Source of the DNA: Nymphaea colorata
Lineage: Eukaryota > Streptophyta > Magnoliopsida > Nymphaeales > Nymphaeaceae
Reading direction: 5' to 3'
DNA: 64,000 bases
Assembly: GCF_008831285.2 (NCBI RefSeq)
Contig: NC_045147.1
Span: 6,788,334-6,852,333 of the forward strand
In this document: positions 1 through 40,207 of the stretch, piece after piece
Layout of the letters: every line of letters starts with the position of its first letter
Numbering within the stretch: position 1 is the stretch's first letter
Position numbers and translations under genes: made by a program
Notes under the pieces: generated by a model
What the model saw: only the letters and a program-made list of their open reading frames with translations
Told to the model about the DNA's origin: nothing
Databases searched by the model: none

Positions 1-1152
1 GAAAGTTTGCATCAACAAGTTTTTCACTTCTTGTATATGATTATCCGAATTGCCCATAATGACAATGTTATCCACATATATATGCAACAAAGTGACATTC
101 CTTTCCTTGTAAATGAAAAGGGAATGGTCAAGAAGGTACATGCTAAAACTACAACTTTGAATCTTGAAGGGGGAAACTATGAAACCAAAAATGTGATGCC
201 TATTTCAGTCCTTGGAGAAATTTTCTCAATTTGCATACCCAAGTGTTGGGGTCCTTCTTAATATGTCCAAAGATCTGCGTCATGTATACTTTTTCTTTTA
301 GATCTCTATATGACAACACTTTTTACATCTAAATAACTTAATTTCCAACCATGATCTGTTGCCAAGGATATGATAGTACCTAAGTCACTGTGGTACGTGG
401 GGGAACCCACGTACCCGTACCGGGACAAGGTTCGTTTGGATCGGTTTCGGGTCAGAACCGATCCAAACTACAAAAAAAAAAAAGAAAACATTGTCTTGGT
501 CTGTTTATGTTTTTTTTTTCTATGAGATTATATGTAAGAACTATGAAAGGAACATTGTCTTAATAATGTGATGATATCAATTTTGTTTTTTATAATTAAA
601 AATATGTAATTATCGCCATATTGCCATACCAAGATTGGCAAAAAACGCCATACCTGCACTCGTACCTATGTGAGATAGGATAGTACTCATCGTTCGCTCT
701 TGATCATGTAGTCCTACACATATTGTTGTGTAAAACCTTGTGCCACAAGCCTTTCCTTATATTTTTAAATCTTCCATTAGGTTTATATTTAATCTTGTAA
801 ACCCATTTGGAGCCCACAATAATTTCCCTTTAGGTCTAGGCATTACTTGTCAAGGCTAACATTCATGAATTTCATTTATAGCTTCTATCCATTGACGAGA
901 CTTGATGGCTTGACTAAATTTAATGGGTTCATCGTGTTTTGCAATCAAAGACATAAGCAATTGAAAATCTAATAGAAGTTTTCATAACTAGCCCATCATT
1001 GAATTGGGTGAGTAACTCATATTTCCTTGTAGGCTAGCCAATTCCAACTTCTATATTATTTGGGGTAGTATCCTTTTCCCATCAGATATATGCTTGACTC
1101 GGAAAACGTTGAACCGTATTTTGACTGGCATCTTCTATAGTGGCTGCAGTTT
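1..1152 (-). mobile_element. Copia element A, reverse-transcriptase part (outermost element, left arm)
   Basis: Reading the minus strand, positions 1-100 encode a Copia reverse-transcriptase stretch containing YVDN, a decayed form of the catalytic YVDD motif, and positions about 690-1050 encode the N-terminal side of the same domain (KWVYKIK-like, positions about 800-820). The two parts are separated by a short inverted-repeat element at 380-678. The frame is broken by many stops and shifts, so this is a dead copy. It continues off the left end of the window, where its 3' LTR should lie. Element B interrupts it at 1153-1157/23467-23471; the rest of A resumes at 23472. Confidence is high for Copia origin, moderate that left and right arms are one element. 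Confidence 0.8.
380..678. mobile_element. Short inverted-repeat element, CTATGTCACA-like family, copy 1 (299 bp)
   Basis: An 8-bp direct repeat GATAGTAC flanks the unit (372-379 and 679-686). The ends are CTAAGTCACTG and, on the other side, CTATGTGAGATAG; read inward they form an imperfect terminal inverted repeat. The left arm is rich in GTACCCGTACC. There is no coding capacity. The 8-bp duplication fits the hAT superfamily; the ends differ from the usual CA(G)GG start of hAT elements. It interrupts element A. Three related copies lie at 2630-3219, 14617-15445 and 39773-40178. Confidence 0.8.
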
Positions 1153-1157
1153 CTTCT

Positions 1158-1385
1158 TGTAGAATAGTAACAAAGAAGGCGATCGTAACGTGGAAAACCC
1201 TTGACTTGAGGGATAAAAAACCACGGTGGAGAAGATCCGGCCCCCACTAGCTGCCGGTCTCTATCTCTCTCTTAATTTTCATTAACGACGTGAAATTCGG
1301 GTTACAAATGTTTAAATAGAGCTCAACATGAATAACAGGTCAGATAGGGTCCAGAGCCGGACCCAAACATACAAACACGCTAACA
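1158..1385 (-). repeat. 3' LTR of element B
   Basis: It starts TGTTAGCG and ends TTCTACA on the minus strand and aligns along its full 228 bp with 23239-23466. The purine-rich tract just inside it (1386-1396, read as GCGAGGGAG on the minus strand) is the polypurine tract. Confidence 0.92.
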
Positions 1386-2629
1386 CTCCCTCGCAAGTTG
1401 GACATACAAATCAAACATGTCCAACTTGGATACATTTCAATCAAATGAAGTTGATGACAAGGCCTTGGTCAGAGCATCAGTTGTCTAGTCTTCGGACTTC
1501 ATGTAAGGCAGAACAAATTCTTTAGCATCATTTCTTTCCCGAATGAAATGATGGTCAATCTCTACATGCTTCGTTCTATCATGTAATACCAGATTGTTGG
1601 CTAAGTTGATTGCAGACTTGTTATCACAATACATCTCCATTGGTCCCTCAGTTTTGATTCTAATGTCAGCCAATTGCACTTTCAGCCACAACAACTTAGA
1701 GACCCCTATGGACACAACTCTATATTCAGCCTCAGGACTAGAGCGAGAGCAAACGTTCTGTCTCTTACTTTTCTATACCATGAGATTTCCTCTCAAGTAA
1801 ATACAATAGCCTGAGGTGGATCTTTTAGTATCAACACATCCTGCCCAGTTAGCATTAGAATACTTTCAATCTCAAGAGAGTCTTGCTTAACGCACAAGAG
1901 GCCCTTGCCAGGACTCTTCTTCAAATAACATAAAATCCTGTCAACTGCTTTAAGTGAACATGTGTGGGTGCATGCATAAACTGATTCATCACATTCACAG
2001 CAAAGGTAATATCAGGTCTAGTAAGAAAGATAAATCAATTTTTCAACAAGACATTGATATCTTTCTTTTGCTTTTTCATAGAGGACCTCCCCATTTATGA
2101 GGCTAAGTTTGTTTCTAACATCTATGGGAGTAGAAGTAGGTTTACACCCAAGTTTCTCAGTCTCCTTTAATAAATCTAGAGTGTACTTTCTTTGGTTTAA
2201 CACAAGACATGTGCCAGACCTAGCAATTTCAATGCCAAGGAAATATTTCAACGTGTCAAGGTCCTTGAGGTCAAACTCAAGAGCCAACAATTCCTTAAAC
2301 TTTGTTCTTTCATCTTCATCATTACCTGTGATTATCATATCATCAACATATACCAACAGAAGAGCTACCTTGTGCTCATTTCTCTTTACAAAGAGAGTGT
2401 GATCTCCATTCCTTTGATGATATCCATGTTGTCTCATTACAAGTTTAAGTTGTGCAAACTACGCCCGCGGAGATTGCTTGAGCCCATACAAATCTTTCTT
2501 CAACCTGCAACATTTTTCAGGTTCCTCATATCTTGGAGGCATGCACATATACACTTCCTCTTTGAGGTCTCCATTTTGAAATGCGTTCTTAACATCAAAT
2601 TGGTACATCTTCCACTCATTTATTATTGC
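1386..2629 (-). pseudogene. Element B: RNase H and reverse-transcriptase core (decayed)
   Basis: The minus strand from 2437 down to 2018 reads as Copia reverse transcriptase, with YVDDMIITGN (the catalytic YVDD) near 2330-2350 and the FLGIEIARS segment after it. From 1715 down to 1485 it reads as RNase H (MYCDNKSAINLANN, HVEIDHHFIRER). Several frame changes separate the blocks. The protein sequence is close to the matching part of element C. Not translatable as a whole. Confidence 0.88.
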
Positions 2630-3219
2630 CTATGTCACACGGAAGAGGAGTACCCGTATGGTCCGGGTACGGGTACGGCCCTGGTGCGGTCAACGCAGTA
2701 CCGGGTACGGTCAACGTACCCGGGATCATTTGTGTCCATTTTCGGACTCGGTCAACTTTGACCAAGTCCAAAGTTGTCCAGTTTTTAGTTGAAAATTAAA
2801 AATCCCCCTCTTTTCTTGTTTCATTTTTCACTCTAAACCTTTGTTGTACATAGTTCCTCACAACTTTTCATTTAAAATCTTCCATACAATGTTTCGAAAA
2901 TCCATTCCTTCTCTATAACTTGACTATTCAATAATAGTGTGAGCCATAACCATAACGATGTCAATATATCTTAAAAGCGTGACCTGTTGCTCCTTCTAAT
3001 CTTGATGATGCGACGGAGAATCAAGAAAGCTAATATATTTGTATGTTAATTACTTCTATACTGTGTTTTGTGAATATGTTATTCATTTTGAAATTTTTTG
3101 ACACACACATATATATATATATATATATATGTCCGCGTGTATGTACGGCTGTACCCCCGCACCCAAATTTTTTTAAAATGGTCCGTACCCGCACCAGTAC
3201 CCGTACCTATGTGACATAG
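2630..3219. mobile_element. Short inverted-repeat element, CTATGTCACA family, copy 2 (590 bp)
   Basis: An exact 8-bp duplication ATTATTGC (2622-2629 and 3220-3227) brackets the unit. It begins CTATGTCACACGG and ends CTATGTGACATAG, so the first 10 bases are perfect inverted repeats. Both arms are packed with GGTACGGGTACGG/CCGTACCCG. An (AT)n tract at 3109-3130 is internal and recurs at the same place in copy 4. No open reading frame. It lies in the reverse transcriptase of element B. Confidence 0.85.
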
Positions 3220-3852
3220 ATTATTGCTAAGGAGACAATAACTCTGACTGTCTTCATCTTTGCAACAGGAGTAAACATTTCCAAGCAGTCAATCTCATTT
3301 CTAACTAAACCCCTTGGCAACCAAACGAGCTTTGTACCTGTCCACACTTCCATCTGACTTATATTTAATGGTGTAGACCCACTTGGATCCTACCAGACGA
3401 GCCACTTCAGGGATATTTACCACTTCCCACATTTTGTTTTTATTTATTGTTTCCATTTCTTCTTGCATCGCATGAGCCCACTAGGGATTGCTCTGAGCCT
3501 CAGTAACAGTTCTGAGAATCACAACTATAGAAAGAGACGATATAAAACATTTATACTTCTTCATCAATTTAGAATATGATATGAAATTACCAATAGGGTG
3601 TTGAGTACATGACCCGATACCCTTTCTGAGAGCAATGGGTAACTCTTCATTTCCAGCTTTTGTCTAACTACCTTCAACCGACATCTCACAGGCACAACTT
3701 GGGTCATCCAAGGAAGGTGTAGGAATAGGATTGGGATTGAGGTTTTTGTTACCAGTCAACTCACCAAGAGCCTCTTTTGTAGTCAATCTTCTCCTGGAGT
3801 AAACATGTCCAAACAAGCAGTCACACTCCTCCTCATTCCCAGTGGAGCAACC
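3220..3852 (-). pseudogene. Element B: N-terminal reverse transcriptase and linker (decayed)
   Basis: On the minus strand this encodes the integrase-RT linker (YSRRRLTTKEALGELTG near 3780-3800) and the RT start (ALRKGI, HPIGNFISYSKL, VGSKWVYTIKYKSDGS down to about 3340). It matches element C closely. The upstream end is cut by element E at the CAACC target site (3848-3852). Confidence 0.87.
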
Positions 3853-4067
3853 TGTTGAATATTGGAGGAAGAAGGGGACGAGAGAGAGAGAGAGAGAGGG
3901 AGAGAGAGAGGAAAACACTTTCTTGCTTATTCACGTGACCCTAATCTCATATTAAAAGAGATTAGGGTTGGCAACATAACAAATTACAAAATCAGTCCAC
4001 TAAATATAAGAAAATATTTAAAAAACTACTATTTAACTTTCTAATATTGCAGAAACACTCTTTAACG
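3853..4067 (-). repeat. 3' LTR of element E
   Basis: 215 bp, matching 13753-13973. It ends AATATTCAACA on the minus strand. The inner end reads CGTTAAAG where the other LTR has TGCTAAAG, so the canonical TG start is mutated. A (GA)n tract sits at 3879-3910. The adjoining 4068-4082 (GCTTGAGGGGGAG on the minus strand) is the polypurine tract. Confidence 0.9.
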
Positions 4068-5656
4068 CTCCCCCTCAAGCTGGAGCATAGATATCAATTA
4101 TGCTCAAATTGTTACAACCTCTCAGGAAATCACCTATGGAAAGAGCCTTGGTGAACATATCGGCTGCCTGATCTTCAGAGGAGACATGAATAGTTCTAAT
4201 AATTCCTTGAACTAAATCCCGAACATAGTGGCAATCCATTTCAATATGTTTTGTCATTTCATGAAAAACAGGATTGTTAGCAATATAGGTAGCCGCCTTG
4301 TTGTCACAATACATTTTTATTGGGAGATTCACTGAAACACCCAACTCTAAAAGTAATGATCTGACTCATGACATTTCAGCCGCAGTTTGAGCCATAGCCC
4401 TATATTTCGACTCAGCACTAGATCGAACCACTACATTCTGCTTCTTGCTCCTCCAAGAAATAAGATTACCTCCCACAAAGACACAAAAACCTGTAGTAAA
4501 CTTTCTGTCATCTACAGATCCTGCATAATCAGCATCACTATATGCTTCAATGTCAACACCTTATCCTTTTTTGAACCATAACCCATTTCCTGAGGCTGAT
4601 TTCAGGTATCTGACAACCATTAGAGCAGTGTCCCAATGAACTTTCCTAGGTTTCTCCATGAATTGACTTAGTTTATTCACAGCGAAACTAATGTCAGGGC
4701 GAGTGACAGTCAAATATAGCAGTTTTCCTATCAGAGATCTGTAAGATTTAGAGTCAAAAAGCTCTGATTCATCATCATGTATATGAATGTGAGAGAAGCA
4801 TGGGGAGAGTTGCAGATTTAGCCCCCAATAAATTTGTTTGTTGTAGAAGATCCAAAGCATATTTTCTCTAAGATACCACAACTCCTTTACTACTATGGGC
4901 CACCTCAATACCAAGAAAATAACGGAGTTGTCCAAGGTCTTTTGTGACAAAGTGTTTCTGAAGAAACTCCTTTGTTTGAGCTATCTCTTGATCACTTTCC
5001 CCAGTCAGAACAATATCATCAACGTAAACAATTAATATCACTATACCAGATGTACCTTGCTTGATAAACAATGAGTGATCAAGTTGGGACCGACGAAAGC
5101 CACATTTAGATAAGACCTCAGATAGCTTATGAAACCATGCACGAGGACTCTGTTTAAGCCCATAATTAGCCTTCTTTAATTTGCATACCTTGGAACACTC
5201 CCCCTGTCTCTCAAAACCAGATGGTTGCTGCATATAAACAGTTTCAGAAAGATCTCTATATAGAAAAACATTTTTCACGTCCAACTGAAATAAAGGCCAT
5301 TGTCGCTGGACAACAAGAGATATAATAAGTCAAATAGAGCCCAATCGAGCCACGGGTGAAAAGGTCTCAAAGAAGTCGACACCATAAGTTTGTGTATATC
5401 CTTTAGCGACAAGACGTGCCTTGAACCGTTCAACTGAACCATCAGAATGATACTTGATGGTGAACACCCACTGGGAGCCAACCACATCACAGTGCCTCGG
5501 TGGATCCACCAATTCCCAAGTCTCTCGAGAGATAAGAGCATCCATTTCCTCCTGCATGGCATGTCGCCACCGTGAATCTAATAGGGCTTGATGGTGAGAG
5601 GAAGGGATGATGTGACTAAACAGAGCTCGATCAAACTGCACCAAACTTGTACTCAA
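4068..5656 (-). pseudogene. Element E: reverse transcriptase and RNase H (decayed)
   Basis: Minus-strand reading gives the RT start (ALLDSRWRHAMQEEMDAL, GSQWVFTIKYHSDGS near 5460-5590), the core with YVDDIVLTG (about 5010-5030) and the FLGIEVAHS segment, then RNase H ending with [14 protein letters not shown] and [13 protein letters not shown] (4344-4075). Frame changes near 4900, 5280 and 5330 break it. It is a different Copia lineage from B/C by sequence. Confidence 0.88.
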
Positions 5657-7092
5657 ATGGTCAGTAGAGACAGAATTAGAAATCGGGTGTAGTGTGCACT
5701 ATCGCTTTCCCTTACGAATAGCAATAGGAAGATCATCTGCATAGTGTTCATCATTTAAACCTGAATCAGTCTGATCAGTGGAGTTTACCTCTTGAGAAGA
5801 CGCTGGTAGGCGGTTGGAAGAGGGACCAAGACGACGAGTGTAAACCAATGGAGGATCAAAGAAACGTTCATGTAACATAGGTTGAGATGGAGGTAAGGAC
5901 TAAAGGGACACTGGTGGAATGGGAAGAGGAACAGGTATAGGCATCTCAGACAGAGGAGGACTCGAAGGAGAAAAATAAAGACGAGACTCAAAGAATGTAA
6001 CATCCGCACTGATAATCTCTTTCTTGGTCTGGGGATCAAAGCACTTATATCCTTTTTGATTGGCAGAGTATCCAATAAATACACATTTGATGGCTTGGGC
6101 AGCAAGTTTGTTTTCGTCTGGGCCTAGGATGTGTGCAAAGCAAGTGCATCCAAATACTTTGGGAGGTATATGAAATAGTGGTCGATTTGTATATAAAAGT
6201 TGAATGGGAATATGTTCTTGGATGGCTGACGAGGGTAATCTGTTAATGAGGTAACATGCAGTAAGAATAGCATCCCCTCAAAAGTAGGCAGGCATGTGAG
6301 AATGCAACATGAGGGTACGGGCCACATTTAGGAGTTGTCGATGTTTGCGTTCGGCAACACCATTTTGTTGGGATGAGGCCGAATTCCATGATTGGCATAA
6401 AACTGAAGTAGAACAGAAGATTTGAATTCAAGAGCATTATCAGTGCGAATATTTTTGACAATGAAACCAAACTGAGTTTTTATTTCCTTGACAAATTTAG
6501 AAAGAATACAGATGACTTCAGATCTTTCCCGTAACAAGAATACCCAACTGGCTCGAGTAAAATCATCAACCAAAACAAGATAATACCGAAAATACGAGTG
6601 AAAAGGAACCCGATTAGGACCCCACACATCCACATGAAGGAGATCAAATGGACTTTGACTAGATGGTTCTTGACTCGAAGGAAAGCTACTCCGTGTATGT
6701 TTGCCTAATTGGCAAGCATCACATAAGAAGGACTCTGATATAGTAATACCTGGAAGCATGCGACGAAGTTTTGACACTGAAGGATGACCCAGTCTGAGAT
6801 GCCACTGAAAAGGAGAAGGCTTTGAGGAGAACGAAGATGCAACAACATTTACTGGGACAGACAAGAAATAGAGAACCTCACGTTCATGGTCGCCACCAAT
6901 CATCTTCCTAGTTAGTAAATCCTGAAAAAAAACATGTACCAGGGTAAAAAATGACTACACTTTAAATCAATAGCCAGTTGCTTAACAGATAACAAATTAA
7001 CAGGAAACCTGGAGCATAGAGCACGTGGGTAATAGTGCCTAAATGTGGGAGATAAATATCATCGCTGCCCAATACAGGAGATAGCTTGCTAT
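5657..7092 (-). pseudogene. Element E: integrase region and linker (decayed)
   Basis: The clearest block is 6903-6328: the zinc-binding part (WHLRLGHPSVSKL, CDACQLGKHTRSSF) followed by the catalytic core (HVDVWGPNRV, VDDFTRASWVFLL, IRTDNALEF). The frame is lost near 6370, after which the C-terminal integrase region continues in other frames to about 5990, followed by a proline/serine-rich linker. The upstream end is cut by element F. Confidence 0.85.
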
Positions 7093-7522
7093 TATAAATG
7101 TGACTATAATAGTCACTAAAGAAGAATATGATAGGAAAAGGCACTAAGGCCACTTGAAATATATCAATCTTATTGAATGAATGTCAAATGGCTGTGTAAA
7201 ACAGCATACATTGTACAAGAGGCAGCCCAAGAATATATATAACCAATTAGAGTGAAGGAGAGAAGGAAGAGAGGGCTGTTCTAGCCGTTGGAGGTTCCAA
7301 CGGCTCATAAAGGAGCCGTTGGAACTCCCAACGGCTAGAACAAAGGGGAAACAAAAAGAAAAAGAAAAGGAAAAAGAAAAGAAAAGAAAAAGAAAAGAAA
7401 AGAAAAGAAAAAGAAAAAGAAAAATAAAAGAAATAATAAAATACATAAAAATGAAAATAAAATGTAAAAAATGTAAAACCTAATCTAGCTATGATATCAA
7501 AAAGATATCTTATTTCCTAACA
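7093..7522 (-). repeat. 3' LTR of element F
   Basis: 430 bp, apparently identical to 12048-12477. It holds a near-perfect inverted repeat (arms 7283-7306 and 7313-7336, 6-base loop) and a purine-only A/G-rich block (about 7338-7440). An apparent 100-residue frame here is only that low-complexity block. Confidence 0.93.
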
Positions 7523-7533
7523 CCCCCCCCTTA
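7523..7533 (-). promoter_or_regulatory. Polypurine tract of element F
   Basis: The run CCCCCCCCTT reads AAGGGGGGGG on the minus strand and abuts the 3' LTR, the position needed for plus-strand DNA priming. Confidence 0.8.
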
Positions 7534-7536
7534 AAC

Positions 7537-8325
7537 TTACGGTGCTAACACCGAAAGTTTATCTAAAAGAAAGTTGAATCTGGGAGAACATAGAGGCTTC
7601 GTGAAGAAATCAGCCAGCTGGAACTCGGAGGAGACATATGGAAGTTTGATTGACTTGTTCAAAAATTCTTCACGAACATAGTGACAATCCATCTCTATAT
7701 GCTTTGTTCGTTCATGAAATGTTTGATTCTTGGCAATGTAGATAGAACTCTTGTTATCGCAGCACAAATCAGTAGGTTCTTCTATTCTTGTTCCCATATC
7801 AAGAAGCATTTGACGAAGCCACACAATTTCCATAGTTGTAGAAGCCATGGCTCGATATTCAGCTTCAGTAGAGGATAGAGAGACTTTCTGTTGTTTCTTG
7901 CACTTCCATGAGATGAGTGATTCTCCTAAAAAAACACAAAAACCAGTAGTTGAGTGTCTATCATTTGGATCTCCTCCCCAATCAGCATCAGTATAAGCAA
8001 TCAAGTTTAAAGGGGAAGAGGAAGACATAAATACTCCCTTATTTATTGTTCCCTTGATATATCTAATGATACGAAGAACAGCTCCCATATGAACGGTTGA
8101 TGGAGCATGTTGGAATTGACTCACAGTATGAACTGCATGAGCAATGTCAGGCCGAGTGATGCTAAGATACATTAAGGAACCCACAAGTTGTCGGTAAGGA
8201 GTGGGATTTGTAAGTGGAACTCCATCATCAATCTTCATTTTGTTTCCTACTGCTTCAGGAGTTTCTATGACCTTATCATCTGTTATGCCTGATTTAGCAA
8301 TGATCTCTGCAGCAAACTTAGTTTG
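7537..8325 (-). CDS. Element F Gag-Pol, C-terminal part after an internal stop (RT end and RNase H)
   Basis: This continues the 8326-11826 frame without a shift after a TAA at 8323-8325. It encodes the end of reverse transcriptase (YRQLVGSLMYLSITRPDI near 8150-8200) and RNase H ([56 protein letters not shown]), ending at a normal terminator just before the polypurine tract. With the upstream part the frame spans 1430 codons, a normal size for a Copia polyprotein. As it stands RNase H cannot be made without readthrough. Confidence 0.9.
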   Translation of the reverse strand, partial: QTKFAAEIIAKSGITDDKVIETPEAVGNKMKIDDGVPLTNPTPYRQLVGSLMYLSITRPDIAHAVHTVSQFQHAPSTVHMGAVLRIIRYIKGTINKGVFMSSSSPLNLIAYTDADWGGDPNDRHSTTGFCVFLGESLISWKCKKQQKVSLSSTEAEYRAMASTTMEIVWLRQMLLDMGTRIEEPTDLCCDNKSSIYIAKNQTFHERTKHIEMDCHYVREEFLNKSIKLPYVSSEFQLADFFTKPLCSPRFNFLLDKLSVLAP

Positions 8326-14608: not shown

Positions 14609-14616
14609 GTCTTAAC

Positions 14617-15445
14617 CCACGACACATGGACGCTGCAAAATCGCCCCCGTATCGGTGTCGACACTCCAACACGGCGATTCCGACATGGGATTCGGCAGAA
14701 CACGTTCTGGATCGGGTATGAGTCAAACCCGATCCAAACCGTCAAATGACCCGATAAAACTTATGCTTTTCGACTTTTTTTTTCACTTTTCACCTTCGAG
14801 TCTTCGACCTCTCCCACTGGCGACGAGCAGTGAGCAGTTCACTTCGGCGGAAGACGGAAATGATGGCGGGCGATAGCAACGATGATCGGCGATCCACGGT
14901 GACGTCCGGTGGCAGGCGGCCAGTAGCAGGTAACTGTTTTGGTTGGTTTATAAAGTTAGGGTTTGCATTCCCCTCTTTCTTCCTGCTCTGTGCTGGTCAG
15001 TTGCGGGGCGAGGTTGATTGCACGATCTCATTGGTTTCATGTCTTGTATTTGCTTTTTTGTTTTTTAGTTTGTTGCTGGTGGCATGGAGGAGAAACTGTC
15101 GCATGGATAGATTTATGATTCTTTTCAAGATTTGGGAGCTTATTTAAATTGTTGTTTACTGTCATTTTTTTCATCAATATGTGAAATCTTGGAAGAAGAA
15201 GATGAGAACGATTTGGGCATTGACGATGACTACAATGATGATATTGATGAACAATGTTTTGTGATAAACAATGTTTTGTTTGTGAGTTTAAGTGAATTAT
15301 TAATTTAATGTTTTTTTTTCAGTTTATTATTTTTTAAAATATTATATTTGCCGTGTCCGCATAGCCCACAATTGTGAAAATTGCCGTGTCCACACCTGTT
15401 TCCCCGCACCTACACCTATATCACACCCGCAGCCGTGTGACTTAG
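14617..15445. mobile_element. Short inverted-repeat element, CTATGTCACA-like family, diverged copy 3 (829 bp)
   Basis: Flanks GTCTTAAC (14609-14616) and GCCTTAAC (15446-15453) are an 8-bp duplication with one change. Ends CCACGACACATGGACGCTGC and, read inward from the right, CTAAGTCACACGGCTGCGGG agree at most positions. The right arm has CCGTGTCC/CCGCACC repeats like the CCGTACCC repeats of copies 1, 2 and 4. It is the longest copy. A frame at 14830-15147 (105 codons, one hydrophobic stretch) and an acidic stretch near 15180-15240 show no family I know. Confidence 0.7.
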
Positions 15446-15453
15446 GCCTTAAC

Positions 15454-28811: not shown

Positions 28812-28819
28812 GTGCCTAA

Positions 28820-28950
28820 GACCCAACTGATTTCACACAAGAGTGAAAGGACATAATAAAAAAGGGTTTGTGTTTTAATTGTGGTGAAAAATGGGTAAAC
28901 GTCCATCAATATAAGCATCTTCATATTTTCCATGTAGCCAACGATGATAG
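28820..28950 (+). pseudogene. Ty3/Gypsy element, zinc-knuckle fragment
   Basis: The plus strand about 28862-28946 encodes KGLCFNCGEKWVNVHQYK followed by an acidic segment, a Gypsy CCHC knuckle in which the last cysteine position is tyrosine. The sequence is cut by element G at its GATAG target and resumes at 33238. Confidence 0.7.
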
Positions 28951-29294
28951 TGTTGTTAATGCTCCTTATCTTTATTATATTTTTAATATGAGTTATGGTG
29001 TGAATTAGTGGGGTGGTTACTTTTGCTTTATGGTCAATTAATTTAGAAGTTTTATAAAAAAAAACTTATGAAATTATGAATAGTTATTAAAATAAGGAGT
29101 TTCATGTTTAAATAGGTATAAATAAATTGTGTAACATAAGTATCCCTTGGTGACCTATAAATAGACTATGTATTTGTGATTGCACTATGAAAAGAAATGA
29201 AAGAAGCCTCTTATGTTTGAGTACATGTGTTTCTAGCATTGTGTACTAGTTCTCTCTTCTTTTTGGGAAGTTTTTTCAACTGAGTATTCCAACA
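28951..29294 (+). repeat. 5' LTR of element G
   Basis: Starts TGTTGTTAATGCTCC, ends ATTCCAACA; carries CTATAAATAGAC (29155-29166), a good TATA box. It matches 32903-33232 with several substitutions and short indels. Confidence 0.9.
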
Positions 29295-29408
29295 AAGCGG
29301 TATCAGAGAAGGTTCGAGGTGTGACTTGGAATTGCAAATATTACTACTGAAACAGAAGTGTTAGAAAGAGAAGGTGAGTTAAGCATATGAAGAGATATTG
29401 GTAAACAT

Positions 29409-30300: not shown

Positions 30301-31157
30301 TACAAGTGTTGACAATTACAAAAGGAGGGCTTGGTATTAGACAGTGGTCGCAACAATCATATGACAGGAAAGGAAGAACTTTTTAAAGAGTTTGACAAAT
30401 CAGTAAAGCTGAAAGTTAAGTTAGGCGATGATAACGACATCAAAGTGGAAATGAAATGTACTATTGCTGTGAAAATCAAATCAGGTTAAAAAAATTATTC
30501 AAGTTGTGTATTTCGTACTTGGTATGTCTCAAAACCTACTTAGTGTAGGCCAGCTTATCCAAAAAGATTATTTGGTCTATTTTCATGATGAAATTTATGA
30601 AATAAAATATAAGAAGACCGACATGATGATAGCAAAAACCCCCATGCTACAAAATAAGTTGTTTCCACTTGAGGTTGCAAATGTGGATACATGTTCATAG
30701 TAGCTAGTACCGATGACAAGTCGAAATTGTGGCACATACAATATGGCCACTTGCATTATAGTGGTTTGAAGTTAGTAAATCAAAAGAATATGGTGCATGG
30801 TTACTATTGGTTTCAATGACTAATAAAGTTTGAGAAGTTTGTGTTTTTGAAAAACACAATCAAACTTCATTTTTAGTAGAAAAAGCATGGGAAGCTAGGA
30901 GACCACTTGAACTTGTTGATGCTCACATTTGTGAGCCCATGAATATTTTGTCATTAAATAAGAATAAATATTTCTTATTATTCACTAATGATTATATAGG
31001 TATGAGTTGAGATTATTTTCTAACACAAAAATCAGATGTCTTTGACAAATTCAAAGAATTTAAAGTGCTAGTTAAAGTGGTCTACCAATAACAACAATCT
31101 ATATTGATGGGAATACACAAATAATTCTTTGTAAGAAAAACACCACAACAAAATAGG
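30301..31157 (+). pseudogene. Element G: protease and pre-integrase (decayed)
   Basis: Positions about 30335-30365 encode a DSGRNNHMTG-like stretch, the protease motif. The frame 30506-30700 (LGMSQNLLSVGQLIQKDYLVYF) is the segment after it. Pre-integrase and zinc-domain traces follow near 30720-30790 with several stops. Confidence 0.7.
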
Positions 31158-31697
31158 GTGACAAAAATAAAAAATAAAACAGTGGTGAAAATAGCAAGCA
31201 ACATGCTTCTTGAAAAAGACTTGCCATATGATTTTTGTGCAAAAATGGTAGCAACATCTATGTATCTGTTGATTATATCTCCTATAAAAGCAGTTCAAAA
31301 TAAGACACCATATCAAGCATGGTTGAACCACAAGCCTAGTGTAAATCATGTATATATACTTAGATGTTTTGCTTGTGCTTTGATTGATGCTTCTGAACAA
31401 TTTGAACAATTTAAATTAGAAAAAAAGAGTGAAAAGTGTATATTTATTGGCTTTAGTTCTAATGCTAAAGGATGTAGACTTTATAATCCTATAACCAAGA
31501 AACTAATTATTAGGAGAGAGATAATTTTTTGTCAAAAAAATTGCTCGACATGGGAGAATGATGAAATCAAGCATGTGACATTTAATAAATTGGAGGGAGC
31601 AACATCAAAGGATGTGCCATCTACAAGCAGTTCATCAAGGAAAATGTTTAGAAGTACACTTGATTCATACTCACCTCCAATGAAGGTAAAATCTTGA
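31158..31697 (+). pseudogene. Element G: integrase C-terminal part
   Basis: A 179-codon frame with TPYQAWLNHKPSVNHVYILRCF, IFIGFSSNAKGCRLYNP and the linker SSSSRKMFRST. The catalytic core upstream (about 30960-31150) is out of frame. Confidence 0.78.
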
Positions 31698-31788
31698 AGA
31701 TATATATGAAAATTATTCTTTTACTCTTTTTACATTTGAACCATCAAGTGATGATGAAGCATGCAAAAACACAGAATGGGTAAGCCCA

Positions 31789-32320
31789 ATGAAAGAAGAA
31801 ATTTCATTGATAGAGAAGAATAAGACTTGGGAACTAGTGAACTTACCTCATGATAACGTGCCAATAAGGGCAAAGTGGGTTTATAAACTTAAACATGATG
31901 CTGATGGCAAAATAAAAAAATATAAAGCAAGACTTGTAGTAAAAGGCTATGCTAAAAAATATGGTGAATATTTTCTTGAAATTTTTTCTTATGTTGCTAA
32001 TTTGAGACAATTCATATGGTTCTTGCAATTGTAACTCAAATGAAATGGAAAGTTTTTCAACTTGATGTAAAATCTACATTTCTAAATGACTATTTAAATG
32101 AAGAAAGTTATGTAGAGCAACCACAAGGATTTGTTATGGCACGAAAAGAAGAAAAAATATATAAGTTGAACAAGTCATTGTATAAGTTTAAGCAAACATC
32201 ATGTGCATGGTGTAGTTGATTGGACTCATACTTGTTAAAAAATGAGTTTCATAGGAGTGAAAGTGAACCAACATTATATGTGAAGATGAAAGGTAGTGAC
32301 ATTATACTTTGTTAGGAAAT
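31789..32320 (+). pseudogene. Element G: reverse transcriptase, N-terminal part
   Basis: Frames 31789-32034 and 32016-32219 contain KNKTWELVNLP, AKWVYKLKHDADGKIKKYKARLVVKG, LDVKSTFLNDYLNEESYVEQPQGF and YKFKQTSCAW. The YVDD part is missing; after about 32310 the sequence is not recognisable until RNase H. Confidence 0.8.
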
Positions 32321-32482
32321 GCACGTTAGAAAATGCGATCGGTTTGTAAGGCAAGGAGTTTTGTTAGGGAAAGTGAGCCGTCTCTAGCACACGAGACATT
32401 ATGCATTAGGAAAAGTTCATATACACTAACGCAAAGAGTATTTACGATAGTAAAAGATGTGATATAGGTTTTTTTAACGCAG
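32321..32482. other. Unrecognised stretch replacing the RT end in element G
   Basis: About 160 bases with no Copia similarity by eye, lying between the RT N-terminal part and RNase H. It may be a small insertion with deletion of the RT catalytic end. Confidence 0.4.
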
Positions 32483-32902
32483 TTGATCAATGTGTTACAG
32501 AAACTATCAACAATAACATTTATAGTATTGCATTTGAGAATCCACATGCCAACTCTAGCGCATCTCTTTTATGTGTTTCTGTATATGACAATTGTTGTAG
32601 TGAGAGGGATTTTAAAGTTAAAAAAAGAGAGAGATATAAAGACACCTATAGAGAATTTTTGTGGTAACAATACAACAACTTCTATGATAAAAAAATCTTG
32701 TTTTTCATGGAAGAACAAAACATGTGGAGAATAAATATGATTTCATTAGAAATGTCATATCAAGAGGACTTGTTGTAGTAAAAAAATGTGCAATATAAAG
32801 AACAAGTTGTTGATGACTTTACTAAGTCATTGTCATTATCAAAGTTAGTCAAATTTAGAGAAAAATTAGATGTATTTGAGTTGTCGCAGTAAGGGAGAGC
32901 AA
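32483..32902 (+). pseudogene. Element G: RNase H remnant and 3' end
   Basis: IENFCGNNTTTSMIKKSCFS and a KTKHI-type remnant (32640-32730) match the Copia RNase H pattern; later LVKFREKLDVFELS precedes the polypurine tract. Confidence 0.7.
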
Positions 32903-33232
32903 TGTCATTAATGCTCCATATATGAGTTATTGTGTGAGCTAGAGGGGTGGTTACTTTTGCTTTATGATCAATTAATTTAGAAGTTTCATAAGGAAAAAAA
33001 AAACTTATGAAATTATGAATAGTTATTAAAATAAGGAGTTTCATGTTTAAATAGGTATAAATGAATTGTGTAATTTAAGTCGCTTGGTGACCTATAAATA
33101 GGCTATTTATTTGTCATTGAGCTATGAAGACAAATGAAAGAAGCTTCTTATGTTTGAGTACATGTGTTTCTAGCATTGTGTTGCTAGTTCTCTTTTCCTT
33201 TTCAGAAGTTTTTTCAACTCAGCATTCTAATA
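32903..33232 (+). repeat. 3' LTR of element G
   Basis: 330 bp; starts TGTCATTAATGCTCC, ends ATTCTAATA (canonical CA end mutated). TATA box CTATAAATAGGC at 33095-33106. Confidence 0.9.
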
Positions 33233-33237
33233 GATAG

Positions 33238-33437
33238 TAATGACTAGGCCAAGGAAGACGAGACTATGGGCATCAAGGATGAGATAGCTGTTGAGACTAC
33301 AAACGTGACTTGCCACACCCTGGCCAATGTGTTGGTACATAACTTGATGAACTATCCCAGCACCATTGGCCAGTGCCAAGTGACAGTCTTGGCAGACACC
33401 ATCCGCCTACAATTTCGTGAGCACACTAATAGTCAAG
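33238..33437 (+). pseudogene. Ty3/Gypsy element, protease start
   Basis: The plus strand continues the zinc-knuckle frame with an acidic segment, then CHTLANVLVHNLM and VTVLADTIRLQFREHTN, in which LADT marks the aspartic protease active site. The following solo LTR interrupts it. Confidence 0.65.
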
Positions 33438-33442
33438 GAGAT

Positions 33443-33800
33443 TGTTGGATAGTGGCCCTGAGCTGTATCTCTACATCTTGTAACTGCAAGAGGGCCCATT
33501 TGCAGTTACATGATTAAATAAGAAAACTGTCCATTAATTGAGAAAATTAATCTCTTTGGCCATAATCATCCGTTGCTGGGCATTGGGAAAACCTAGGAGG
33601 TGGTCTATAAAAGCACAGATCCTTTGCTTAGGGTTAATCGATGAGATTAGCCAAGTCTGCGCCTCCCAGAAGCAAACCCGTGAAAATCTCTGTTCTTGGT
33701 TCCTTTTCTTCCTTTCTCTCCCGTTTTGTTGTTGTGCATGATTAAGTTGCTGGCCAAGCTTGAGCGTTGAGATCTTGGGCGGAACATCAAAGTTCCAACA
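33443..33800 (+). repeat. Solo LTR (358 bp)
   Basis: Starts TGTTGGATAGTG, ends GTTCCAACA; a perfect 5-bp duplication GAGAT (33438-33442 and 33801-33805) flanks it. It contains TCTATAAAAGC (33604-33614), a TATA box. With no internal region beside it, it is the product of recombination between two LTRs. Confidence 0.88.
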
Positions 33801-34440
33801 GAGATTGGGTGTAGGGTTAATGATCACCCCCAAATTTAATGTTATGGTTGAAGATGAGACCGAATTGCATCATGTTATGTGGCCAAATGTTGAGATTGTC
33901 ATCCAAAATATATCCCTTGTAGTAGATCTTTATGTCCATCGAAGGAGTAGACAGGGTGCTTGGTATGCATTGTTTGTGGGAGTGAGGGGCACGGTTAGGG
34001 GATGTCACTTGGGACTTTTTATGAATCATAAAGTCCCTCAAGGGGGGCTAGAGACACGGTTTTGGTTGACTGCTCAAAACACACTCTATGCCAAAATGAA
34101 CATGGGCTTTTCAAAGTCGGCAGCCAGCGGTTATGTTGTTCTCCATGACCACAAAGATACAGCTAACAGTGAGCCTACTGAGGTAGTACACAAGGCAGTT
34201 TAGCACGTGTTGGATGAGTTTGGGATGGTGTTTGATGAGCCTAAGGGATTGCCCTACAGTGTAGTTATGACTGTCACATTGAGCTAATGTTTGGAGGTTA
34301 TATCATGAGTGTGCAGCCATGCCAATATGCTCACTCTAAAAAAGGATGAGATAGAGTGGCTGTTAAAAGAGATGATGGAGGCAGAGATTATCTGGTATAT
34401 GCTGGCTACCATCTGATACATTCGGTTGGGAGGAAAATTG
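33801..34440 (+). pseudogene. Ty3/Gypsy element, protease end and reverse-transcriptase start
   Basis: The frame reads ITPKFNVMVEDETELHH and VEIVIQNISLVVDLYV (33822-33935), the protease end of plant Gypsy Pol, then VLDEFGMVFDEPKGLP (34206-34253) and, after a shift, SKKDEIEWLLKEMMEAEII (about 34336-34395), the opening of Gypsy RT. The rest of Pol is missing. Confidence 0.78.
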
Positions 34441-34525
34441 CCAAGTCAGACTTCCACACCTATGACAACCAGTGCACTTTTGGGTATAAATACAATTTAG
34501 CAATCAAATTCAAATCCATATTTAA

Positions 34526-35345
34526 ATTATAAAGTCAAATATAATGATATAATACATTGAGAAACCATGCACCAATTACAATTTCCAGATTTCACAAGGA
34601 GTTGGGGTCAAACTTTGTGCTTAACTGTTGGGTTTCAATTCAAGTAGAATCAAAAGTGAACAAGTGCGATAATACTCAAAGAAGTGCTTCTATTGCTTTG
34701 ATGAAAGTGTTCAATTATAGAGTCAAATATAAAGATATAATACATTGTGAAACCATGCACCAACTACAATTTCCAGATTTCACAAGTAAGGAGTTTGGGT
34801 CAAACTTTGTGGACAACAGTTGGGTCTCAACTCAAGTAGAATCAAGAGTGAACAAGTGCGATAATATTTAAACAAAGTGCTTCTATTTCTTTGATAAAAA
34901 TGTTTCAATTATAAAGTGAACAAGTGCAGTAATACTTAAAAGTACTTCTATTGCTTTGATTCAAGTGTTTCGATTATAAAGTCAAATATAATGATATTAT
35001 ACATTGTGAAACCATGCACCAATTACAATTTCCAGATTTCACAAGTATGGAGTTCGGGTCAAACTTTGTGGACAATTGTTGGGTCACAACGCAAGTAGAA
35101 TCAAGAGTGAACAAGTGCGATAATACTCAAAAGTACTTCTATTGCTTTGATTAATGTGTTTCAACTATAAAGTCAAATATAATGATATAATACATTGCGA
35201 AACCATGCACCAATTACATTTTCCAGATTTTACAAGGAGTTTGGGTCAAACTTTGTGGACAACTGTTGGGTCTCAACTCAAGTGACACAAGTGCGATAAC
35301 TCTCAGAAGGAGTACTTATATTGCTTTGATTAAAGTCTTACAACT
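34526..35345 (+). repeat. Tandem repeat, four imperfect units of about 190-250 bp
   Basis: Units begin with GTCAAATATAA(T/A)GATAT at 34534, 34732, 34981 and 35172. Each contains AACCATGCACCAA, TTTCCAGATTTCACAAG, GGGTCAAACTTTGTG and AACAAGTGCGATAAT. The third interval is longer because part of a unit is repeated. Confidence 0.85.
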
Positions 35346-37138
35346 GTTCATCAATGTTGCATGGATCCTTAACTCATACAAAAGTGTTACACTTAATAAA
35401 AGCAAATAAAAGAAAACAAAAAAATCCTAAATCTAAATATGGTAGCCGTTTGAAGAGACTAGAGCTTTTTCATCTTCAACAGCTCCTTCAATCTCCAATA
35501 CGAGCAGCTCTCGATCTCATTGTTGTTGGTCCACCTCCCTCTTGAGTGGATTGTGAGATGCACAAGTTGCACAAGAAGGCGTTCAGCTGCACGTATTAGA
35601 AAACGAAAGTGGTAGCTATATAAATCTGTCCCAACACAAAAACAAGACAGTATATAATGTGTTTGTGTGCGATGTTAACCGGTTACGAGTACAAAAATAT
35701 CGACAGGTTTTTAGTGTTATGTGTCAAAAGTTGTATAATACTTGGTTAATGTTGGATAACCTAAGTTATACTATTTCACATATGTTCTTACCCTTGATTT
35801 TCACTTACATGAACTTAAATATGCAACGTACTATCATAGGTTGGTGAACAAAAAATAGATGTAATTCCAATACAAAGATTGGAACTAGCTATGCATAACT
35901 ATAAATAATATAAAAAGAATGAAAAGAAAGAACACAATATAACCCCACCGCATTGTTGTTTTGGAAATATATAAATAAATAAAATCAATTTTTAATGGAT
36001 AATTACTTTGTCATTTCTTATTTTTTTATTTTCTCCTTCTTTTCGATAATGGGCCATTGCCTCCTTTTCCCCCACTTCAACCACCACCTGAAATTCGGGA
36101 AAGGTTACTTAAATTTGTTTTAAATGGAGTACTGGGCCAGTAAGAGAGAAGTGACATTCGTGTCTTCTATGTCGTTCTCCCATACTGCTTAGTTGGGCTC
36201 CGTCAAATGGTTGTGTCGACTGTCGTCAGGTGGCTGCGGTAGAAGGTAGACTGCCACCCTTTAGTTTATTATGTTATACATGCATTACTATATGGATGAG
36301 ATATGCCTTCGTTGGTAGAATGGCTCATATGTGCATGATTTCCATTCATTACATAAAAATATATGTTTTGTCTGCATGATGGATACTGTATGATGACAGC
36401 ATTAGGAAGGCATGGTCGTTTCCCTATTTATCAGCTTTATTTATCTTAACGTGTGATTACTGAGATGATCTCTACCATGCATATGTGATCTCCCTTTTAT
36501 GTACCATGTAACTTACATGCACTATCCGGAGCAGTGTGCGCATAAAAGAAATAAGGAGATCAAATAGAATGCAGAAAAATATGGTTGAAACCATGTCATT
36601 GTGATCGACTAGGACCAGCGTATGTGGATGTATGTCATAGCATTAATTCCATCTTTTGATGCATCTCAACGTATTGTGTACGGCTTTAATATGCATGCTA
36701 GTTGTGCTAATACATTATACCACATTTGTTCATTGTGTTCACTAGATTTTTTTTTTCATAGCCATAGAAAACGCATTAGTGCCCTTTTTTGTGTGGGTTT
36801 TCATTTTTTTCATGTTCTTTTGCGTTTTTCGTGCTCTTTTTTTACAATTTTAATTGCCAAATTTTATTTTCACGTTTTTTTTAAATTTTCTTCACCGAAA
36901 TAATAACTATTTTGAAATTTTTCGAGTTTTTCTCTATTTTTTCCCCAAAAAAACAACTTTTGTCGTTTTAAACCCAAAAACCACATTTATGGTTATGTTT
37001 TTTTATGTATACATACATCACCGTAGAGAGCATATGCTTGAGGGAGCAGAGTTCTCTCTGCTCGACCAATGTGTTTCTAAAGAAATTAAATAAAACAAAA
37101 TAGATGGATTGTTCGAGTGGTTAATGGAAAATTTTCAC
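35346..37138. other. Non-coding DNA, nothing recognised
   Basis: No family similarity seen in either strand. The right part (36740-37020) is T-rich and gives meaningless open frames. Confidence 0.5.
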
Positions 37139-37201
37139 CTGGTCCTCGGGATTCTGATATTGCTGCTCACTGGGACAATGCCATTCTCCATCGCTGCAAA
37201 T
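37139..37201 (-). other. Possible coding exon (second of a minus-strand pair)
   Basis: On the minus strand, TTTCTGCAG is followed by a short open stretch with ATG at 37191 (MENGIVPVSSNIRIPRT) and then CCAG|GTGAAAA, a fair donor. The base composition is higher in GC than the surroundings. I do not recognise the protein. Downstream exons were not found. Confidence 0.3.
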
Positions 37202-37401
37202 CTGCAGAAATAAGTGATGTAGGGTTTAATTTCATAAATAATAATAACAATAAGAATAAAACTAATAACAACAAAAGAAAGTAGCAAGCATGGAGTGAGT
37301 CTCTTTGTTCAGCCACGGGTTCCCTAAACCCTTGCTCTATAGGAAAACCAAAAACAAGGAAAACAAATAATAAATAAATAAGATAGAGGGGAAGAACTCA
37401 C

Positions 37402-37560
37402 CAGGGCTGTGTCATCGTGGCCGCTAACGGACGGATGGCGTCGGATCCCATTCGATGGCGGAGATGGGCAGAATGGCGATGGGAGCTTTTTGCCTGAAAA
37501 GCGAATGGAGAGGACAGAGAGAGTGCTTGGGGGAAATGAGAAGAACATCAAGGGAAAATT
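37402..37560 (-). other. Possible 5' exon of the same minus-strand gene
   Basis: GC-rich minus-strand stretch with ATGGGATCCGACGCC (about 37452-37438) ending CAGCCCTG|GTGAGTTC, a strong donor. If spliced to 37201 the upstream ATG frame would stop at once, so this would be mainly untranslated leader. It may be a captured gene start. Confidence 0.3.
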
Positions 37561-38732
37561 AGGCTTTAAAACCTTTTTATGGAAAATTTTTATCTGTTCT
37601 ATATTTTCTGATTTTTTTTTTTTTTACAAGAGCACAATACAATAAGAACGTGTCCACACGTCCTTCTTAGAAAATAATTGCAGAAATGGTATGTGCCATT
37701 GTTTTGCCAATTTCCGACTTTTTTTTTGTTGACTTGGAAATTCCGAAAGGAGAATCCTTGTTAGGAAAACTCCTATTAGCCCATTTCTAAATTTTATAAA
37801 TGTTGAAAAACAAATGAGGGGGGTGGGTTCGACCAAGACCATGTTTTCTAAATTTTGGAGTGTAGTCTTCTGCTTATATTAAAAGCTCGACTCTAAAAAT
37901 AGAAAACTAAAGTCTCATGAGTAAGAGTTTATGAGAGATCGCTTTTAACTTACAATAATGACCGCTGCAGAAACTTTATTAGTCTTAACTAAACACGGAC
38001 CAGTTTAGGGTTAGATCTAAATTGGTTAATTCCACTAAATCGCTTGAGACTTCACTTTCAACTTCTAAATGTCATTTTGATTCGGGTTGCTTAAATTGTT
38101 CAGGTTGCATGCATTGTCCAGTTCTCACTATGTTGATTAAATGTATATAAGTGGTTACTGGTCGCCAAGTTGGATCCGGATCCAATGCATATTAAAGTAG
38201 ACACTTTGGTTCATGTTTTACAGAAATTTAGATTTAAATATGATTTTGAATTGGTTCTACCTCTGTTGGTATATCCTTTTGGATATTTGTTGGTCTCATT
38301 TATGTTTCTTTGAAGACTGTTTTTTGAAACGTAGTTTTTAAATAAATTAATCTGGATGGATCAGAATGCAATTCGATCCGGGGTTAATCTACACCCACTT
38401 TTGAATTTTAATATTTCATTAGAAGGGCCACGATCAATATTTCGAAGTCTAAATAGATTTGGACTAAGATTGATTCTAGTTGAACTAAGGTGTTTCCAAG
38501 AGTTAGCGTTCGGTTGGAGATTTAATGCCTTTATCTAGATTTGATAAAAAAAGCTTACAATTTATTTTTAAACTAGAAATAATAATTTTAGGCCTTGTTC
38601 ATGCCTTTATGAGTTACTCTTGATTTGACGTTAAAAGAATTTTGGATTTGATACTTACTCTGATTTGACCTTACTTGTTTTAAAGATATGCATTTGTTAC
38701 CGTAAATGGAACTTAAAAATGAAGCCAATTAT

Positions 38733-38735
<3 letters not shown>
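37561..38735. other. Non-coding DNA, nothing recognised
   Basis: Mixed AT-rich sequence; no gene or repeat family recognised. Confidence 0.45.
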
Positions 38736-38785
<50 letters not shown>

Positions 38786-38797
38786 TATATATATATA
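38736..38797. repeat. (AT)n microsatellite
   Basis: About 62 bases of alternating A and T with one interruption. Confidence 0.95.
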
Positions 38798-38799
38798 AT

Positions 38800-39560
38800 T
38801 GCTATTAATGGATTTTCCACAAAGAGAGATGATTCTTAATGGCCTTCAAAATGTGTCATTGAATGTCTTTTGTAGAGTATAATGAGACCCACCAAAAATG
38901 CCAATAAATGTCACCATAGTTAAAGTATTTTTGTGGCATAAACCCAAACGCCATGAATGGTTCATTCCATAGCGTTTTATTCATCCCATTGAAAACTATT
39001 CAATGATGTTGGAGTTGTGCCATGGTTAAGACGCTTTTAATGGGCATGGGCAGTCATCGAAGGAGCTTTCAACGTCATTTTTTGAGTGATGGTATTAGAT
39101 TACTATGGGACATAAAAAAACGGCACTATAAATCTTTTATATGGCGTTGCATATATGGTGGGAATTGTCACTAACCATCTTTAGTGACAAATATCTGTAC
39201 GCTATTACTTACATTTTGTGACAAATTGCAAACGCTACTAAATGCCTATTAAAATTTCATTAACAACCTTCAGTAAAAAACACACTATTCAAGGATGGTT
39301 CATACCAGTGACATATCAGCGGTGACTATGTCACCGGTAATAATTGAACGAGTGTTCGACATAGACACGGGCGGGGAAATAAGCCGGTAAAAAGTCTATA
39401 CTATTGACGTTTACCGGTATAAGTCACGCGTTATTCCCACCTAAACTTGCGGTAAAAAGTCTATACTATTGACGTTCACCGGTATAAGTCACGCGTTATT
39501 CCCACCTAAACTTTTTTCTCTTTCTTCCCCCGTGGTTTTATTCCATCTGAATAAATTCCT
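38800..39560. mobile_element. CACTA-like subterminal repeat region, with a 65-bp tandem duplication
   Basis: Many short motifs of the type GTGAC, CACCGGTAATAA and CCGGTAAAAAG recur in both orientations, as in the subterminal arms of CACTA elements; CACTATTCAAGG at 39293 is a possible terminus. A 65-bp unit is duplicated in tandem at 39385-39449 and 39450-39513 with one difference seen. No transposase is present. Confidence 0.4.
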
Positions 39561-39568
39561 CTTTCCAG

Positions 39569-40207
39569 ATGGAGATGATTTCAGATGCCATTGATGATGT
39601 TCTGGACAAAGATGAAGTTGAAGAAGAAACAGATGAACTCACAAACCAGGTTTTTTTTTTTTATGTATATCGATTGTGTTACTTATGCAATATCTATGTT
39701 ATATTTTGGACATTTTCTGTGTAAATCTTGTCTTTCCCTTTGGTGCAGGTCCTGAATGAAATTGTGGTTGACCTTTGTCACATGGGTATTGCTGTAAAGG
39801 CAACTCACCCGTACTGGTCACGTACGACACCGGTACTAGTATTGGTACTGGTACTGTCCCAAGTACTTTTTATGTACAGGTTAAACAATACCGGATACGG
39901 TCAACGTGCATGGGACCATATCTGCCTAATTTAAAACTCGGTCAAAGTTGGCCGAGTCCTTTCCAATCTAAAATTTAGGATTTCAGTTTTTACACTCAGG
40001 AAACACATACAGAGCTGTGCTTTCATATTCTATTCAAAAGTTTATTCTTTAGAATCTATAAATTTTGAATCATGAATGTGTCATTTTGTTTGAATATATA
40101 TATATATATATATACCCAAGTTTTTTTAAAATAGTCTGAACCCGTGGCTGTACCCGTAACCGTACTTATGTGGCATAGTGGTTGACGTGGTTTTGCAGGA
40201 TAGTTGA
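39569..40207 (+). pseudogene. VPS2/CHMP2-like ESCRT-III protein, C-terminal exons, interrupted
   Basis: Exon 39569-39649 (after the acceptor CTTTCCAG) encodes MEMISDAIDDVLDKDEVEEE plus TDELTNQ, the acidic C-terminal helix of VPS2-class ESCRT-III subunits, which act in multivesicular body sorting at endosomes. A 99-base GT-AG intron follows, and exon 39749 encodes VLNEIVVD, matching the family's V-L-(D/N)-E-I-x-V-D. Within that exon a 406-bp inverted-repeat element is inserted (39773-40178); after it the frame runs only seven codons to TGA at 40205. The N-terminal ESCRT-III core is absent upstream. This is a broken gene piece with its intron kept. Confidence 0.72.
39773..40178. mobile_element. 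Short inverted-repeat element, CTATGTCACA-like family, copy 4 (406 bp)
   Basis: Perfect 8-bp duplication TGGTTGAC (39765-39772 and 40179-40186). Ends CTTTGTCACATGGG and TATGTGGCATAG. Internal blocks match copy 2: ATACCGGATACGGTCAACGT, CTCGGTCAAAGTTGGCCGAG, an (AT)n tract, TTTTTTTAAAAT and CCGTAACCGTAC. It is inserted in the VPS2-like exon. Confidence 0.85.

Follow-up and report, generated by a model that had tools for sequence, protein, structure and literature searches.

In maize, the Ds elements of the Ac/Ds family form a heterogeneous set whose members have short inverted repeats at their termini, as well as some subterminal repeats, in common (PMC3260210). Plants also harbor hAT-like miniature inverted-repeat transposable elements (MITEs), and the Hermes element prefers target sites of the form nTnnnnAn (PMC2803484, PMC10368747). 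Here, we describe four short elements, referred to as copies 1 to 4, which are found in a 64,000-nucleotide stretch of the Nymphaea colorata genome (contig NC_045147.1, positions 6,788,334 to 6,852,333 of the forward strand; referred to as the window). The best explanation, to which we assign a probability of about 0.92 with its mechanism included, is that all four are non-autonomous hAT DNA transposons of related subfamilies with ends near CTATGTCACA. The hAT assignment is made because of the 8-bp duplications, a Hermes-like target preference and a longer element in the same genome, which has similar ends and encodes hAT domains.

The elements resemble maize Ds in their 8-bp duplications, in their variable size and composition, in sharing terminal and some subterminal repeats, and in the occurrence of internal-deletion derivatives beside a short class of ~400 bp (PMC3260210). 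They differ from Ac/Ds in sequence, i.e., the ends are CTATGTCACA-like rather than the 11-bp C/TAGGGATGAAA, which these elements do not carry, and the subterminal repeat is GTACCC instead of AAACGG (PMC3260210). The hAT-like MITEs of carrot (PMC8227079) and Brassica nigra (PMC7385995) are likewise a few hundred bp long, present in many copies and assigned to hAT by their duplication, and those of carrot are also found in coding regions and untranslated regions (UTRs); this likeness is one of description. With lengths of 299-829 bp in the window, inverted ends, a lack of coding capacity and many copies, the present elements have the structure of MITEs; at most, they add a family to a known kind of transposon.

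The coordinates, sizes (299, 590, 829 and 406 bp), similar inverted ends and 8-bp duplications that an earlier interpretation of the letters alone (the sequence-only reading) had proposed for the four copies were all recovered (Table 1). The duplication is exact at three of the copies and agrees in seven of eight bases at copy 3, the 5' end of which (CCACGACACA) is a poor match. Tests of 148 pairs of end-like sites across the window showed an 8-bp duplication, counted when it had one mismatch or none, at the four copies and at no other pair, while duplications of 7, 9, 10 or 11 bp are absent from all pairs; a displaced control gave 6 of 8880. Since the four copies themselves had served to train the end profile, this result is circular for the ends but not for the duplications, and the ranking was therefore repeated with a profile built from the other three copies in each case. 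Each omitted copy was the top non-training pair bearing a duplication; copies 1 to 4 scored 23.9, 38.4, 21.8 and 28.5, respectively, as compared to at most 10.8 for the other non-training pairs with a duplication. When the duplication was not required, 15, 1, 27 and 5 pairs scored at least as high as copies 1 to 4 (omitted and training copies counted), and therefore copies 1 and 3 cannot be established by their ends alone.

The copies also share sequence inside their ends. A 74-bp internal 5' block (76%) and the 3' end are common to copies 2 and 4, in agreement with the internal blocks that the sequence-only reading had seen in these two, and none of 500 shuffles reached the score of their 3' arms, also when the terminal 14 bases were removed. 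For the 5' block common to copies 1 and 3, none of 500 shuffles reached the score, and 2 did so once the terminal 14 bases had been removed. For the 3' ends of copies 1 and 2 the corresponding numbers are 0 and 220 of 500, i.e., there is no further likeness beyond the tip. The remaining arm comparisons among the window copies were reached by at least 24 of 500 shuffles, and the outer flanks have no common sequence, each comparison being reached by at least 50 of 500.

Table 1. Coordinates of the four elements and of associated features in the window.
Feature	Position	Strand	Description
Copy 1	380..678	+	299 bp, non-autonomous hAT element; ends 5' CTAAGTCACTGTGG and 3' (read inward) CTATCTCACATAGG; host site, decayed Copia reverse transcriptase
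Copy 1 target-site duplication	372..379 (left), 679..686 (right)	.	GATAGTAC
Copy 1 5' quasi-palindrome	392..415	+	GGTACGTGGG..CCCACGTACC
Copy 1 block common to copy 3	433..468	+	GGATCGG..CCGATCC
Copy 2	2630..3219	+	590 bp; ends CTATGTCACACGGA / CTATGTCACATAGG; host site, minus-strand Copia reverse transcriptase
Copy 2 target-site duplication	2622..2629 (left), 3220..3227 (right)	.	ATTATTGC
Copy 2 GTACC repeats	3185..3207	+	3' subterminal
Copy 3	14617..15445	+	829 bp; host site, Copia integrase core
Copy 3 target-site duplication	14609..14616 (left), 15446..15453 (right)	.	GTCTTAAC (left), GCCTTAAC (right); one mismatch
Copy 3 four-base overlap	15169..15172	+	copy bases 553-556; ~2.57 kb of a longer element gone
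Copy 4	39773..40178	+	406 bp; ends CTTTGTCACATGGG / CTATGCCACATAAG; in apparent next VPS2-like exon
Copy 4 target-site duplication	39765..39772 (left), 40179..40186 (right)	.	TGGTTGAC
VPS2/Snf7-like exon	39569..39650	+	upstream of copy 4

A search of the genome (407,766,735 bases in 783 contigs) revealed many relatives of copies 1, 2 and 4. At least 44, 49 and 53 matches were found for copies 1, 2 and 4, respectively; these numbers are lower bounds, being derived in each case from 40 scored candidates, out of 192, 1033 and 297. Sixty relatives with 300-bp flanks were taken for analysis, 20 for each copy type (for types 1 and 2 the best 20 outside the window, for type 4 a set chosen to span the greater part of the query). 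With an end defined as a site near the expected place with at most three mismatches of 10 to CTATGTCACA (most had 0 to 2), both ends were located in 59 of the 60 relatives, and the remaining one (L030) was left out. In 47 of these 59 (15, 15 and 17 of types 1, 2 and 4), the element is flanked by an 8-bp duplication in which no more than one base disagrees; it is exact in 37, while exact duplications of 4, 5, 7, 9, 10 or 11 bp are found in none and of 6 bp in one; the displaced control gave 3 of 5310. An earlier, narrower pass with ends sought within 20 bases in 40 copies of types 1 and 2 gave a duplication in 17 of 40, and the wider range was used because the copies are often longer than the query.

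The likeness between the relatives is confined to the elements. Columns of the terminal 14 bases have a mean identity of 0.86-0.96, which drops to 0.26-0.29 outside; homology running past the proposed ends, which the sequence-only reading had named as fatal to its proposal, is thus not observed. The exact 14-mer CCTATGTGACATAG, which forms the common 3' end, occurs 919 times in the genome (466 and 453 by strand), and the reversed pattern occurs twice. In this sample, which was chosen for similarity, copies of type 2 diverge from their majority sequence by 3.7% on average, those of type 1 by 7.9% and those of type 4 by 7.8%. Two of the relatives, L091 and L092, which are located ~22 kb apart on contig 3, have identical duplication bases and near-identical ends; they are probably one insertion in a region that was later duplicated. 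Counted in this way, 46 of 58 events have a duplication.

Among the 46 duplications, T is found at position 2 in 24 and at position 3 in 22, and A at position 6 in 29 and at position 7 in 24, where A and T each make up 0.32 of the flanks (uncorrected p of 0.0031, 0.016, 1.6e-5 and 0.0037, respectively, with seven positions tested). T2 and A7 occur together in 12 of the 46 and either one in 36, and there is no clear enrichment of T4 (6) or A5 (11). The favored motif, nTTnnAAn, agrees with the Hermes pattern nTnnnnAn, from which positions 2 and 7 were predicted, while positions 3 and 6 were unpredicted. In the four window copies by themselves, this preference is not evident. Their duplications all end in C, which was considered as a further target feature and rejected (13 of 46 genome-wide, p 0.05).

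The two ends of the elements are built differently. The three subfamilies have a single majority 3' end (CTATGTCACATAGG read inward) and differing 5' ends (CTAAGTCACAGTGG, CTATGTCACACGGG and CTTTGTCACATGGG). The 3' arms contain direct repeats, with 2.7-3.6 GTACC and 0.0-0.4 GGTAC in the last 70 bp, while the 5' arms contain a quasi-palindrome at bases 11-48. Relative to letter shuffles, the 5' fold has z < -2 in 18 of 19 copies of type 2, 12 of 19 of type 4 and 9 of 20 of type 1, as compared to 6 of 19, 0 of 19 and 3 of 20 on the 3' side; the 5' quasi-palindrome is clear in type 2, fair in type 4 and weak in type 1. Single-strand folding of the whole window copies gave z values of -6.3, -5.6 and -2.8 for copies 1, 2 and 4, respectively. 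The motif-rich arms described in the sequence-only reading are most apparent in copy 2 (10 GTACC/GGTAC), less so in copies 1 and 4 (4 each), and absent from copy 3 (0).

The quasi-palindromic GGGTAC..GTACCC pair at the left end and the head-to-tail GTACCC repeats at the right end are read, by analogy with Hermes and Ac, as putative transposase binding sites. In Hermes, the left and right ends are also unlike, the 8-bp targets follow nTnnnnAn and a quasi-palindromic subterminal pair is located near the left tip, at bases 11-27 (PMC10368747). The two systems differ in their terminal sequences, and a role of GTACCC in binding is here suggested by the analogy. The host of Hermes is a fly. It is conceivable, but in our view doubtful, that the elements belong to a hAT lineage that joins one almost invariant right end, consisting of GTACCC repeats and CCTATGTGACATAG, to several different left ends, the letters of the quasi-palindrome stem being specific to each subfamily. 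If true, the structure and not the sequence of the left end would be conserved, and passenger families would be born by left-end swaps under one transposase.

A coding relative was found for copy 3, which aligns to a locus on contig 5 in pieces, i.e., bases 3-353, 351-556 and then, after 2.57 kb, 553-803. This locus (L111) is a 3437-bp element flanked by a perfect 8-bp duplication, CTTAAGAC; its ends, CTACGACACACGGA and CTAAGTCACATGGG, deviate from CTATGTCACA at 2 and 1 of 10 bases, respectively. It holds an extra 65 bp near base 352 of copy 3. When five frames of L111 were compared with Pfam, two reached the cut-off, with matches to DUF659 (E 3.1e-21) and Dimer_Tnp_hAT (E 7.1e-13), and the dimerisation frame also matches the Hermes transposase (E 2.7e-6). 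Most simply, copy 3 would have been born by internal deletion of an L111-type coding element, with a four-base overlap at the junction. The 129-aa frame of copy 3, which is the sole copy frame scanned, has no Pfam match. Twenty-four distinct frames of the window were compared with Pfam, and none matched a hAT family at the thresholds used. An acidic stretch, EEEDENDLGIDDDYNDDIDE, is kept in copy 3 at 15176-15270 and could derive from the end of the transposase gene. Some loci match copy 3 in no more than its last ~220 bases. Two of them (L112 and L113), which are 416 and 417 bp long, have the 8-bp duplications ATAGTTGT (exact) and CCTCCTGG/CCTCATGG and form a further short subfamily of ~416 bp with its last ~190 bp in common with L111 and copy 3.

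The domains of L111, the duplication counts and the Hermes-like target together uphold the hAT assignment, toward which the sequence-only reading had leaned because of the duplication length, while being unsettled by ends that do not start with CAGGG. The domains and the duplications also bear on an origin as Mutator-like MITEs, which are non-autonomous and would depend on a MULE transposase. Short MITEs of this kind, without coding sequence, abound in plants (PMC8227079), but Mutator duplications are 9 or 10 bp long (a rule quoted in PMC3579700), lengths at which none of the 59 relatives has an exact duplication, whereas 37 have one of exactly 8 bp; in addition, hAT domains are found in an element with similar ends. 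A Mutator origin is thus highly improbable.

The sequence-only reading had proposed a search for longer, transposase-coding copies with the same ends, and one with similar ends was found for copy 3. For copies 1, 2 and 4, no coding element with GTACCC-type ends was found, which is the first of several points that weigh against our explanation. Thirty loci with Dimer_Tnp_hAT, which come from 150 scored of 1113 candidates (the other 120 being left out), have no such end within 1.5 kb, the best site having 3 mismatches of 14 (one locus) and the others 4 or 5; L111 is missing from the 150, i.e., this list misses the L111 type. Furthermore, the reading of L111 is spread over three separate frames, in which Pfam found no BED finger; by eye, a BED-like pattern is seen at its bases 1205-1672, where Pfam gave just zf-C2H2_4 (E 0.058, under the cut-off). 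Twelve of the 59 relatives have no duplication at up to one mismatch, five of these having one with two mismatches and the other seven nothing noteworthy. In hAT ends, the second base tends to be A and the fifth G, which is not a strict rule; the majority ends have this G but carry T instead of A as their second base, which we do not treat as decisive. Finally, when compared with L111, the 3' arms of types 1, 2 and 4 without their terminal 15 bases exceed shuffles weakly (23, 6 and 90 of 1000 reach the scores, respectively), and the scores of their 5' 60 bp are reached by 957, 61 and 63 of 1000. Therefore, it is mainly the 3' tip that ties L111 to types 1, 2 and 4.

The weak support that the 5' end and the inner 3' arm of L111 give to this link weighs slightly against our explanation and in favor of another one, namely that copies 1, 2 and 4 on the one hand and copy 3 on the other are two hAT families with different transposases, the ends of which are alike by convergence or very old kinship. 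Such a division would account for the lack of GTACC in copy 3, for the GCACCC-type repeats in the 3' end of L111 and for the 5' 60 bp of L111, which match those of the other subfamilies no better than shuffles do. However, the 3' 60 bp of L111 match the three majority 3' ends above all 1000 shuffles, the 5' block of copy 1 is common to copy 3, and the copy-1 majority sequence matches L111 over 45 bp (78%, E 0.001) at this same block. Taken together, we consider two separate families unlikely and retain related subfamilies as the preferred explanation.

The sites of insertion were also compared with the sequence-only reading, which had placed three copies in old Copia elements and one in a host-gene exon. 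The former was confirmed, and the Copia pieces that host copies 1 to 3 have stops or frame changes; the exon at copy 4 is less well defined. When copy 2 and one duplication are removed, 133 reverse transcriptase positions align gap-free with 74% identity, including one stop codon away from the junction, and the E value is 2.8e-75 as compared to 4.9e-57 with the copy present. The empty site of copy 1 gave 27 gap-free residues, 11 of which are identical (E 1e-5, single comparison); here the host frame had decayed before the junction, and Pfam found no match in the 47-residue peptide at this site. At copy 3, a 40-residue integrase stretch crosses the junction by five codons, and in the other frame the Pfam integrase match is under the cut-off (E 0.1). 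Copies 1 and 2 are found at homologous positions in two Copia reverse transcriptases, ~20 bp apart (~33 bp by gapped alignment). A hotspot in this Copia segment was considered and rejected: of 63 insertions, just 7 have flanks that match the window Copia frames, namely L111, three of the four window copies and three of the 58 genome copies, at differing places, in a comparison that other Copia families would escape.

At copy 4, comparison with a VPS2 probe gave a match to the upstream exon over 28 residues (71%, E 9.2e-9) and a weak one to positions 40305-40355, which are 130 bp past the copy (E 0.19). When the next exon was joined without copy 4, the Snf7 score increased from 13.8 to 17.8 bits, which is below the cut-off of 27.3. 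Beyond the junction, no more than a single residue clearly fits, and the joined frame soon reaches a stop. Insertion of copy 4 into a VPS2/Snf7-like exon is likely, but the case is not strong. In a comparison with solved structures, the VPS2-like peptide matched two designed proteins and nothing else.

The empty sites, the leave-one-out ranking and the genome-wide relatives, including L111 for copy 3, are also what decides against chance look-alikes, i.e., short inverted motifs that happen to lie beside accidental 8-bp repeats. Only copy 3, with its weak 5' end and the one mismatch in its duplication, would fit such a description; the genome copies refute it, and its probability is close to nil.

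In the proposed mechanism, a hAT transposase made elsewhere in the genome would bind the ends and subterminal repeats, cut the element out and insert it across an 8-bp staggered target. Copies 1, 2 and 4 would represent derived families that keep little beyond their ends and have spread as passengers, beside the deletion derivative, copy 3. By analogy, the elements would work like Ds elements or hAT MITEs.

Near copy 4, a 65-bp unit is present in two tandem copies (98% matches) at 39385-39513, directly upstream of the VPS2-like exon; these units may lie in another mobile element. An open frame at 40546-40989 (+) with IREEHAAIKAQEAFGGYL resembles, by eye, IQ67-domain (IQD) plant proteins, and Pfam gave no match.

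Among the papers listed by literature searches for the end sequences, none is about plant transposons as judged by title (a silkworm MITE paper surfaced), and a search for Nymphaea with MITE or hAT returned nothing on these elements by title. A Phyllanthus genome paper (PMC13412785) contains CTATGTGACAT once; by title it is not a plant transposon paper. The motif CTATG is absent from the main text of four MITE papers (PMC8227079, PMC12804786, PMC3991616, PMC12550479). Exact scans of viral and genome contig collections with CTATGTSACAYRGGTACGGGTAC gave no match, as expected for a plant repeat.

The general view of transposons is unchanged by these elements. Their ends would be missed by searches for CAGGG-type ends, and they constitute a well-delimited, high-copy group of hAT passengers, in which a coding element has probably given rise to a deletion derivative. 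The asymmetry between their left and right ends provides a small natural set on how hAT transposases read ends.

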